Notes under the pieces: model-generated | Told to the model about the DNA's origin: nothing | The model's database searches: none | What the model saw: only the letters and a program-made list of their open reading frames with translations | Source of the DNA: Leucosporidium creatinivorum | Lineage: Eukaryota; Basidiomycota; Microbotryomycetes; Leucosporidiales; Leucosporidiaceae | Direction: 5' to 3' | DNA length: 64,000 nucleotides | NCBI GenBank assembly: GCA_001600635.1 | Contig: BCKL01000003.1 | Span: 382,308-446,307, forward strand | Program-made: the position numbers and the translations under genes | In this document: in pieces, positions 26,055 through 33,290 of the stretch | Numbering within the stretch: the first letter of the stretch is position 1 | How the letters are laid out: the number at the start of each line of letters is the position of its first letter

Positions 26055-26961
26055 TCAGAGGTCTTTCAGCTCGCCCAGGTGGAATCTAAGGATGGTCAAG
26101 AGGCCGACACGATTCTTCGTGAGAGCCGAGAGGTAGCAGAACCGCCTCCCTAAATTTCTCGTCCGCTCTTGTCGACTCGGCGATGGAGAAAAAGCGGCTC
26201 TGCAGCTCGCTGCACCTCTCCCACCGATCTCGTTCTTCACGCCCGCACTCATAGAACATCACGAAAGTCACTCTCCGCTTCTGGTACAGAGCTGAGCGCT
26301 TTTCTGCCCCTTCGAAAGTGTTTCCTGGCCGACGCACTTGTTCACTCCCCTCGGCTCCCGTTTTGATTGGCCGCTTCCTACAAGTGCAAGTCGGCGAGAT
26401 GGCGACAGGGAAGGGCAGGAGTGACTGTCGACCTACCAGTAGCGGTGATCAATGCTGCAGAAGCTCGAAGAGCTCGTCGGAGGTAGCTGGAGCGGAGCAG
26501 AGCTCGGCGCAATCTTCACCGAGCGTGTGAGCTCACGCCTCGCAGCACCCGCTAGCGAGACCTCGCTCTCGCTGAGGGGGTCGCTCGGGTAAAGGCTGCA
26601 GCTAAGCAGCGTTGCCTTGTACTACAGAGCAAACCTCCCCTCTCTCGCCGCCATGGCTTCGGCGTTCGCAAGCTCTCTCTCCTTCGACCGCTCTCAGCCA
26701 CGTCTGAGCACAGCTGAAGCAGGCCCAGGTTTCAATCAAAAGCTAGTAGAGAGAGAGAGAGTCACAAAGAAAGCCCCGAGTTCACTTTTGTCCGCTTATC
26801 GACGCTCTACGAGTAGAGATCCTCCTCCTCCTCCTGCTGGAAGGCCGCTCCTCCGTCTCCTCCGGCAGCAGCGGCTCCTCCCTCTCCCTCTGGGAACTTG
26901 AAGCTCGATCCAAAGCTGCGCGACTGTTGGAGAGTCTGGGCGAACAGCTCGTATCGCCTGA
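26055..26961 (-). repeat. left arm of a 0.9-kb inverted repeat (contains the CDC48 3' end)
   Basis: This arm is the reverse complement of 32362-33290. It includes nearly the whole last CDC48 exon (26807-26966), its 3' UTR and about 750 bp downstream. Long stretches are near-identical, for example around 26318-26530 and 26617-26901. Similarity falls in the outer 200 bp. It carries a GA tract at 26744-26760. The outer end encodes, on the minus strand, MFYECGREERDRWERCSEL, a peptide shared with the other arm. Confidence 0.9.
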
Positions 26962-29900
26962 TGTCCCTGAGGAGCGCGAAGAAGTAAGCGGGTCAGCGAT
27001 CTCGTCCTCGAGCTGTAGACCACGACCTCAGACAAAACGTACTGGTCGGAGACGGAACGACGAGCATAAGACATGGCCTCCTCGAAGTGAGCGGCGGTAA
27101 TCTCGGGAACGGGGTCATCCTCCTCGACGACGTCCATGTTCTCGTCCTCGGCGACAGCGGCGGCAGCCTCCCTCTCCTCCTCGGTCATGGCAGCCTCCTT
27201 CTCCTTCTTGGCCCTGTCGGCCTTCATGTCGGCCTCGATCGACGCGCGAATCGCGAGCTTGGCCGCACGCTGGCAAATCTCGGTGAGATCGGCTCCCGAG
27301 AAGCCGTGGGTGTTCTTGGCGAGGAAGGAGAGGTCGACCGAAGGCGAGAGAGGAGACCTCTTGAGGGCGGCCTTGAGAATCGAGATACGCGAGGCCTCAT
27401 CGGGCTGTGGGCGGGGAAAGAGAGAGAGCACGGTCAGCGAGGAAAGTGGCGAGACAAGAGCGACTCGACGCACCAGAGGGATGTAGATGAGCTGATCGAG
27501 ACGTCCAGGACGAAGGAGAGCAGAGTCGATCTGATCCGGTCGGTTGGTGGCTCCGATGATCTGTAAGAGAGAGCGAGAGGTGAGCTCGGCGCGTCGAGAA
27601 GGCAGCCAGAGAGCGACGACTTACGAAGACGTTCTTCTTGGCGTTCATTCCGTCCATCTCGGTAAGGATCTGGTTGAGCACACGGTCTCCAGCTCCTCCA
27701 GCATCTCCTCCTCCTCCTCCACGAGCCTTGGCGATGGAATCCAGCTCATCGAAGAACATGACGACGGGGGCGCTGCGAGGTGAGGCGAGGGGTTAGCTCT
27801 AGCTCTAGTGGAAAGAGGCGAACGGAAGAGTGCAACTCACGCAGCACGAGCCTTGTCGAAGACATCGCGAACGTTGGCCTCCGACTCTCCGAACCACATG
27901 GTGAGAAGCTCGGGTCCCTGTAGGAGAAACGAGAGGCGTCAGCAAACCGAGTCGGCGCTATAGACTCTCGCTCAGAAAAGCACCTTGATCGAGATGAAGT
28001 TGGCCTGGCACTCGTGGGCGATGGCCTTGGCGAGGAGCGTCTTTCCGGTTCCAGGGGGACCGTAGAAGAGAACACCCTTGGAAGGCGACATTCCGTACTT
28101 GAGGAACTTCTCGGGGTGCTCGACGGGGTACTGAACCGTTTCCTGCAGCTCGATCTTGACCTTCTCGAGTCCTCCAACATCGTCCCAGGTAACCGTGGGG
28201 ATCTCGACGACCGTCTCGCGAAGAGCGGAAGGGTTGGAAGTGCCGAGGGCGAAGCGGAAGTTGTCCATGGTGATGCCGAGCGAGTCGAGGACCTCGGCGT
28301 CGATCGTATCCTCGTCGAGGTCGATGAGGTCCATCTTCTCACGAATCTGCTGCATGGCGGCCTCGGAACAGAGCGAAGCCACGTCAGATCCAACGTATCC
28401 GTGGGTGTCGGCGGCAATCTGTGGGAGGCGAAGGAAGAGAGTCAGCCTCGTCGGCGGCGCTCGTAGTCAGCGCCACGGCTCACCTTCTCGAGGTCAACGT
28501 CGTCGGCGAGCTTCATGTTCTTGGTGTGAATCCTGAGGATCTCGAGACGGCCAGTAGCATCGGGGATTCCAATGTCGACCTCGCGGTCGAAACGTCCGAA
28601 ACGACGGAGGGCGGGGTCGATCGAGTTGGGACGGTTGGTGGCGGCCATGACGACAATGTTGGAGCGAGCCTTCATGCCGTCCATGAGGGTGAGGAGCTGG
28701 GAAACGACACGACGCTCGACCTCTCCGTTGGTCTGAGGAAGGAAGGGAAGGTCAGCTCGGCGATCGCTGGGTCTTGCCAGTCGACCTCGAAACGCACCTT
28801 GTCACGCTTCGGGGCGATAGAATCAATCTCATCAATGAAAATGATGGAAGGCGAGTTCTTCTCGGCCTCCTCGAAGGCCTTGCGAAGGTTGGACTCGGAC
28901 TCTCCCGCCATCTTCGACATGATCTCGGGACCGTTGATGAGGAAGAAGAAGGCTCCCGTCTCGTTGGCGACGGCGCGGGCCATGAGCGTCTTTCCGGTTC
29001 CAGGAGGACCGAACATGAGGATACCGCGAGGGGGCTTGATTCCGATCGACTTGAAGAGCTGGGGGTGGCGGAGGGGGAGCTCGACGAGCTCGCGGATCTG
29101 AGCCATCTGCTTGCGGCAGCCTCCAATGTCGTCGTAGCCGACGTCGGCGAGGTTGCCCTCCTCGTCCTCGCGCTTGATGGGCTCGCCCTCTGCGGAAGGA
29201 AGGTTGGGTCAGCTCGACCGAAGGGTCGGACTCGATGAGGTCAAAGCGACGCACCAGTGTGGATGACGGTGTCCTGAGCGACAATGCAGTACTCTGCAGG
29301 GTCGGTCTCGACGACCTTGAACTCGACACTCCTGCAAGCAGTTCGAACGAAGTCAGCATGCTGCCCCGCATTGGCCTCATCGCTCAGCTCCGAACGCACC
29401 TGGCAGCTCCCTTGGCGAGGAAGGTGTCTCCCTTGCGGACGGGGCGGTAGGACTCGAGGAAGTAGGGCTTGAGGAAGACGTTGAAGATGTCACCAGTGAG
29501 ACCTGCAGCGGAGGTGGGGTCAGCTCGCTTTCCCACCGGGAACAGCAACGCGAGTTCTCACCCTCAATCGAGTCGTCAAAGGGAAGGACGTGGATGCGCT
29601 TTCCGTACTTGATGTCGTGGCAAGCGTGGACGGTGGCGATGTCTCCGAGCTTCACGCGGAGGTTGTTGCGAGCGACTACGATGGAAGGAAGCCGAGTCAG
29701 TCGCTGAGGTCCGGTCGAGCTGCTGGAAAGGCCGAGTAACTCACCCTTGTTGATCTGGATCTTGCCCTCATCAACATCCTCGGAAGAGAGGACGATGAGA
29801 ACTGTGTTGGGAAGCAAGTGAGGGACGATGCGTGTCAGCTCGCCTGTCCTTCGAGGTGGGGTCTGCTGCTGCTCCGTCGTGGTCGCCCTGTGCTCCGCTT

Positions 29901-32361: not shown

Positions 32362-32518
32362 TCAGGCGATACGAGCTGTTCGCCCAGACACACCAACAGT
32401 CGCGCAGCTTTGGATCGAGTTTCAAGTTCCCCGAAGGAGAGGGAGGAGCCGCTGCTGCCGGAGGAGACGGAGGAGCGGCGTTCCAGCAGGAGGAGGAAGA
32501 GGATCTCTACTCGTAGAG
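32362..32518 (+). pseudogene. orphan copy of the CDC48 C-terminal exon
   Basis: About 52 codons identical to the CDC48 tail except one residue (Leu to His in QTLQQ/QTHQQ). I count seven base differences from the true exon over about 155 bases: six are silent third-position changes (ACT/ACA, AGC/AGT, CCA/CCC, GAG/GAA twice, GCC/GCG). The frame and stop are intact. It sits 112 bp downstream of the RPS7 stop and has no promoter of its own. It may be a spare 3' end used when the segment between the arms is inverted, or simply a young duplicate. Confidence 0.75.
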
Positions 32519-33290
32519 CGTCGATAGGCGGACAAAAGTGAACTCGGGGCTTTCTTTGTGACTCTCTCTCTCTCGACTAGCTTTTGATTGAAACCTGGGC
32601 TTGCTTCAGCTGTGCTCGAGTCAGACGCGGAGAGGGAGCGGTCGAGAGAGAGCTGGCGAGCGAGCGCCGTAGCCATGGCGGCGAGAGAGGGGAGGTTTGC
32701 TCTGTAGTACAAGGCAACGCTGCTTAGCTGCAGCCTTTACCCGAGCGACCCCCTCAGCGAGAGCGAGGTCTCGCTAGCGGGTGCTGCGAGGCGTGAGCTC
32801 ACACGCTCGGTGAAGATTGCGCCGAGCTCTGCTCCGCTCCAGCTACCTCCGACGAGCTCTTCGAGCTTCTGCAGCATTGATCACCGCTACTGGTAGGTCG
32901 ACCGTCACTCCTGCCCTTCCCTGTCGCCATCTCGCCGACTTGCACTTGTAGGAAGCGGCCAATCAAAACGGGAGCTGAGGGGAGTGAACAAGTGCGTCGG
33001 CCAGGAAACACTTTCGAAGGGGCAGGAAAGCGCTCAGCTCTGTAACAGAAGCGGAGAGTGACTCTCAGGATGTTCTATGAGTGCGGGCGTGAAGAACGAG
33101 ATCGGTGGGAGAGGTGCAGCGAGCTCCATGGCCGCCTCCGCCACTTCGCCGAGTTGAGCAGAACGGACGAGAAATTCGAGGAGGCGGATCTGCTTCTTTG
33201 CAGCCACGAATAAGGGCTGTATCGGCTTGGAAATAATTCTAAGACTCCACCTGAACAAGCTGGTAGACCTTGAGAAGCAGGTCAAACGCT
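32362..33290 (+). repeat. right arm of the inverted repeat, with orphan CDC48 last exon
   Basis: Reverse complement of 26055-26961. It starts at TCAGGCGATACGAGCTG, within a few bases of the exon boundary in CDC48, and reads in frame [20 protein letters not shown] through to [10 protein letters not shown] and TAG at about 32516-32518. No upstream CDC48 exon accompanies it, so this copy is not expressed as Cdc48 in the order shown. The bases before it (GCGCCTCAG) look like a splice acceptor. The 3' UTR-like part stays highly similar to the left arm to about 33110, then similarity drops to the end near 33290. Confidence 0.9.

Follow-up and report, generated by a model that had tools for sequence, protein, structure and literature searches.

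In the G segment of phage Mu, in shufflons and in the Hin and Gin switches, a site-specific recombinase acts on inverted sites so that one 3′ end of a gene is replaced by another, and different proteins are the result. Inversion between inverted repeats is also already known in a fungus. In Candida albicans (PMC6591007), long inverted repeats contained the breakpoints of potential inversions spanning about 4.1-102.6 kb; eight of nine inversions lay in repeats holding open reading frames (ORFs), the median identity of the repeats was 98.3%, and a 3.1-kb CEN4 inversion was detected by polymerase chain reaction (PCR). In humans, an inversion between 7-kb arms at 94% identity probably broke within 782 bp that are 99.9% identical, and another inversion between inverted repeats exchanges terminal exons (PMC3961182). 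For Drosophila, staggered breaks have been proposed to leave inverted duplications at the ends of inversions (PMC7584159). The locus described here is an inverted repeat around the gene pair CDC48 and RPS7 of the basidiomycete Leucosporidium creatinivorum. It lies in a stretch of 64,000 nucleotides (contig BCKL01000003.1 of assembly GCA_001600635.1, positions 382,308 to 446,307 of the forward strand), which is called the window below and in which positions are counted unless a contig is named.

This locus would be a new candidate case. It resembles the C. albicans loci in being fungal, in that inverted repeats may hold partial ORFs and in its kilobase-scale unique segment, and it resembles the human inversions in that inverted repeats flank genes, an exchange could spare the genes or swap a terminal exon, and a short near-identical tract could be the likely breakpoint. 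There are differences too. In C. albicans the CEN4 inversion was demonstrated by PCR, and the repeats associated with inversions have the high median identity given above, whereas the CDC48-RPS7 arms share about 90% identity and a single orientation is seen. The human inversions were genotyped in people, whereas the CDC48-RPS7 repeat is known from one assembly; for the Drosophila inversions other arrangements are there for comparison, whereas CDC48-RPS7 is known in one arrangement. The repeat probably goes back to an old segmental duplication that copied the CDC48 3′ end in inverted orientation and whose arms were partly re-homogenised by ectopic gene conversion, with the exon copy in the right arm as a passenger.

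Extent and mosaic identity of the arms

The left arm (26055..26961, minus strand) and the right arm (32362..33290, plus strand) were confirmed, in agreement with a preliminary description of this DNA that had placed two arms in opposite orientation there. The left arm consists of the CDC48 3′ flank and the last 150 nt of the CDC48 coding sequence with the stop codon, and is the functional copy, joined to an intact splice acceptor. The right arm is an inverted copy of the CDC48 3′ end and lies 111 bp beyond the RPS7 stop codon. As in inversion-prone repeats, the two homologous arms enclose a unique segment, here of about 5.4 kb, which contains RPS7 on the plus strand and, on the minus strand, CDC48 minus most of its last exon. 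The repeat search over the 64 kb (seed 14, minimum length 60) returned the arms as two inverted pairs, 26059-26693 with 32636-33270 (635 nt, 90%) and 26706-26961 with 32362-32617 (256 nt, 96%), and no repeat besides these. In a BLAST comparison of positions 20001-40000, the similarity of the arms extended weakly outward to 25989 and 33339 (985 bp, 88.7%), and a 66-bp direct match at 80% was seen within CDC48 (28011-28076 and 28960-29025). The inner edge of the arms is sharp. When an arm was searched against the 27.7-Mb assembly of 63 contigs, the best candidates scored comprised the two arms and, on contig C11, a weak relative of 152 bp, with no third full copy among them.

The alignment of the arms has 915 columns, of which 95 differ, and the identity is mosaic. 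From the outside inward it runs through 64.2% (151 columns), 96.9% (223), 100% (232), 64.3% (70), 97.7% (88) and 95.4% (151). The outer part of the left arm (26055..26203, which agrees with the right arm in 64% of 151 columns) was taken as the level of divergence without homogenisation. The perfect tract of 232 bp (26427..26658, paired with 32671-32902) may be a gene-conversion tract and would be the most likely crossover zone. Beside it, between two conserved stretches, sits a divergent CT-rich island (26659..26722, 64% of 70 columns) with a length difference of 6 nt. Although the arms are about 90% identical overall, they share identical runs of 232, 72, 57 and 49 bp; the longest runs lie outside the exon. 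A run of 232 bp was reached in none of 20,000 shuffles of the mismatch columns of the whole arm. Because the identity is mosaic, the arms have probably exchanged sequence since duplicating.

The outer zones match each other with z values of 13-15 and the seven C11 relatives with z values of 2-6. One duplication therefore spans the whole arm, and an origin of the arms from two independent ancient elements was rejected on this ground. A non-coding RNA in the arms was rejected as well: no Rfam family was found at gathering level in the whole window, positions 25900-27100 gave sub-threshold matches only, and a search of the window for transfer RNA genes returned none. An antisense protein gene over the exon (ORF 26593-26898, with its mate at 32425-32736) was rejected since the differences in the divergent island are not biased towards third positions. 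To the left of the left arm, nearly 3 kb (23200-26055) contained no coding-like ORF by a crude codon score.

The duplicated last exon

Each arm carries an in-frame copy of the end of the last CDC48 exon with a stop codon, as had been noted before; 150 nt are common to both, and the right copy is open. In the left arm this part of the exon occupies 26807..26961 (minus strand), and the exon runs a few bases into the unique segment. The copy in the right arm lies at 32362..32516 (plus strand), and the true exon start is not found upstream of it. Because the splice acceptor and the exon's first few bases belong to the unique segment and not to the arms, the right-arm copy alone is not spliceable like the left one. 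The two copies differ at 7 of 150 nt; six of these differences are synonymous and one changes L to H in the right copy, so that 49 of 50 residues are identical. The CDC48 C-terminus matches p97 chains and Cdc48 chains, among them those of yeast, and the changed residue falls in FAQTLQQ, which all five p97 alignments compared read alike; these five entries are near-identical and count as one protein.

It had been proposed that homologous recombination between the arms would flip the segment without breaking either gene and that CDC48 would then take the other arm's exon. The geometry does permit such a flip. In an in-silico inversion, with one crossover point tried in the 232-bp tract, CDC48 kept its own exon and could be read through to the normal C-terminus, and the stop context of RPS7 stayed intact. 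The splice acceptor would still be present after the flip, and the divergent neighbours CDC48 and RPS7 would move jointly. A crossover inversion harmless to both genes thus appears possible. The proposed exchange of exons holds only in part: it would require the crossover to fall within the exon or further inward, where identical runs reach 44 bp at most, and it would not follow a crossover in the 232-bp tract, after which CDC48 keeps its own exon. For this reason the copy of the exon in the right arm is probably a passenger fragment.

Apart from most of its last exon, CDC48 occupies 26962..30322 on the minus strand; its start codon was read by eye, and the interval takes in the opening bases of that exon. 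RPS7 (31173..32250, plus strand; start and stop codons read by eye) is divergent from CDC48 and lies entirely between the arms. In a Pfam scan that covered 10 ORFs of the window, the CDC48 pieces matched AAA domains, the RPS7 piece matched Ribosomal_S7e, and the gene beyond the right arm matched the C-terminal domain of ATP adenylyltransferase. The body of CDC48 has one full DNA match in the assembly, which is itself, and nine short pieces of 51-131 bp, which were taken as presumable other AAA ATPases. The genome has a G+C content near 60% and dense short introns.

Origin of the repeat and the possibility of inversion

For the preferred explanation, the CDC48 3′ end, comprising the last exon, the 3′ flank and a motif-bearing intergenic stretch, would first have been copied in inverted orientation to the far side of the CDC48-RPS7 pair. 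The arms would then have diverged, to about 64% identity at the outer end, and ectopic gene conversion would have renewed the centre and the exon side, its latest event leaving the identical tract of 232 bp. In favour of this explanation, no other full copy was found, the right copy is without the true exon start and carries the change from L to H, and other inverted duplications are present in the same genome. The duplication looks old. Even if the segment does not flip, the locus would illustrate an inverted duplication kept alike by conversion, in which a terminal exon was duplicated as a passenger.

Some observations weigh against this explanation. The right exon changes the amino acid at only one of its seven differences, fewer than a neutral fragment should; the binomial P value, with a transition weight of 2, is 0.0016 when all changes are placed on the right copy and 0.021 when they are shared. 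This hints weakly that the right copy may at times have been used, or may have been renewed recently. When the well-conserved parts alone are joined and shuffled, a 232-bp run arises in 163 of 20,000 trials, and most of the signal therefore comes from the steps between zones. A higher mutation rate could also account for the divergent island, which is CT-rich.

An origin of the arms in a single past inversion is unlikely, though it accounts for the same layout. Staggered breaks would have left an overhang of the CDC48 3′ end, which was filled in at both ends of the inverted segment, and the orientation would now be fixed. This agrees with one sequence being duplicated in inverted orientation at both ends of an intact intervening segment, a picture that is not specific to it: any inverted duplication looks the same, and for this reason sequence alone cannot separate the two origins. 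The staggered-break account concerns the origin and is compatible with later conversion. More generally, origin, conversion and flipping are not mutually exclusive, and the confidence given to each explanation here overlaps with that given to the others.

An active flip-flop, or a standing inversion polymorphism, in which crossovers invert the 5.4-kb segment often enough for two isomers to coexist in the strain or the species, is rather improbable. It would fit the geometry and the preserved reading frames, the signs that the arms have recombined with a 232-bp identical tract persisting, and the few amino-acid changes of the right exon, and inversions between inverted repeats are known from C. 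albicans and human (PMC6591007 and PMC3961182). Against it, the arms, at about 90%, are below the C. albicans median and the assembly holds one orientation only. If the segment does flip, the locus would offer a clean natural example, in a fungus, of an inversion around CDC48-RPS7 that recurs and is probably neutral. A dedicated switch it is probably not. Phage Mu G, shufflons and the Hin and Gin systems yield different proteins, whereas the two CDC48 ends encode 49 of 50 identical residues, and differing proteins from alternative 3′ ends, the mark of a programmed site-specific inversion, were not found among these two ends. A 15-bp motif is inverted in both arms, as short recombination sites are, but occurs at other places of the genome too.

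It is also rather improbable that the arms have stayed alike through a functional non-coding element, made up of this dispersed motif and its surroundings, and not through gene conversion. The motif is present in both arms and the weak C11 relatives share the motif region; the perfect 232 bp, however, lie beside the motif, not on it, and outside the matches to the C11 relatives. An assembly artefact is hardly credible, for although inverted repeats are prone to misassembly and single N bases (ambiguity or masking) occur in other repeats of this assembly, the arms differ at the 95 columns mentioned above, the window is without any N and the flanks of the two arms differ on both sides.

A dispersed motif in the arms

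The pairing centres of C. elegans have short motifs that are enriched in limited chromosomal regions (PMC3820632). The motif of the arms is like them in its enrichment in limited regions of a few contigs. The motif, AGGAAACACTTTCGA, lies at 26312-26326 in the left arm (minus strand; C3:408619-408633) and at 33003-33017 in the right arm (plus strand; C3:415310-415324). Across the genome 12 sites match it exactly (C3 has six, C11 five and C18 one); when one mismatch is allowed there are 20, against 2 for the reversed pattern. A 19-base form with at most three mismatches gave 43 matches against 1 reversed (16 on C3, 8 on C8, 7 on C11, 2 on C27 and 10 single ones elsewhere). The core TCAGGAAACA occurs at 109 sites, against 25 for the reversed pattern, and 69 of them are on the four contigs C3, C8, C11 and C18. 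Among the 100 of 109 places listed, C3 has 29, C8 25, C11 8, C18 7 and C27 at least 3; outside the four contigs the density is about 1.7 per Mb. A strict motif pattern was found 41 times, 38 of them on the same four contigs, and never in reverse. The arms' own copies are uncounted by TCAGGAAACA and by the strict pattern because they begin CCAGG and end GAAG.

On the four contigs the TCAGGAAACA sites are interior (for example, 157-933 kb of the 1,692 kb of C3), and the motif of about 20 bp ([TC]CAGGAAACA..TT...) is about 6-14 times denser there than on the rest. A short motif enriched in limited contig domains is what a pairing site would be expected to look like. Seven of the eight C11 sites of TCAGGAAACA belong to one duplicated family, and C3 and C8 therefore carry most of the independent evidence. 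Contig-specific variants exist, such as TCAGGAAACAAATTCGAGG on C8. Across 33 aligned representatives with unlike flanks, out of 47 hits, conservation extends from -3 to about +17; the representatives were picked by their exact core, and only the positions around the core are informative. The motif looks like a protein-binding site. Scored with a weight matrix built from other loci, the two arms hold the only strong sites in the window, at 26.8 bits, the next site having 10.2. For the shorter word CAGGAAAC the window has 6 occurrences where 1.77 would be expected, and 2 of 100 shuffles reach 6. A text search of the literature for the motif letters found no mention.

It was also considered that the motif of about 20 bp could be the recognition site of a DNA-binding or DNA-cutting protein acting in a few chromosomal domains, where it would promote ectopic exchange between intergenic copies bearing the motif, with inverted duplication, conversion and occasional inversion of the genes lying between them, and CDC48-RPS7 as one such unit. 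This is a long shot. If it were so, fungi would have an equivalent of the sites at which particular chromosomes pair or recombine. The domain-restricted motif may be a more important lead than the flip, and its density on the four contigs calls for explanation.

Other roles of the motif were tried and rejected. As a transposon end it was rejected because two pairs inspected by eye showed no target-site duplication and because the 33 representatives have flanks that are unrelated outside about 20 bp; visual inspection also spoke against Helitron, hAT and B-box readings, which were rejected. Nor does homology end at the motif as a rule, for in 14 pairs, which are not independent, the match stopped 17-30 bases past the motif start in 4 and did not in 9, and 1 had no match. 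A tie to mating type was rejected, as STE3 is on C25, the homeobox gene on C24 and neither on C3, C8, C11 or C18. STE3 (C25:436 kb) and the homeobox gene (C24:379 kb) are thus on different contigs, and the first STE3 piece has one in-frame TAG, possibly in an intron. A tie to F-box genes was rejected because the F-box matches are spread over many contigs; a word count in 18 regions upstream of F-box genes (C26, C22 and C17) was uninformative, the reversed control keeping every shared word. The F-box genes themselves are greatly expanded, with at least 128 F-box-like matches when 150 of 330 candidates were scored.

At least four other inverted duplications carry the arm motif. The one at C3:210/218 kb has arms of 1.7 kb at 97.7% around an interior of 4.5 kb, and its match stops 27 bases past the motif start. 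The repeat at C8:341/368 kb (341-344 and 365-368) extends over 2.5 kb at 90%, with two motif sites per arm and F-box matches at its edge. The others are at C8:633/638 kb (289 bp, 84%) and at C3:777/860 kb (at least 826 bp, 91%, about 83 kb apart). Because they were found by following the motif, these four do not show that it is enriched in inverted repeats, and direct duplications carry it too, for example at C3:708/740 kb. The arms at C3:210/218 kb also hold seven single bases reading N at mirrored positions. On C11, at about 349-352 kb, two tandem phosphomannomutase-like stretches (1557-2351 and 3373-4139, counted within that piece of the contig) are 67% identical in DNA; only the second was confirmed by Pfam.

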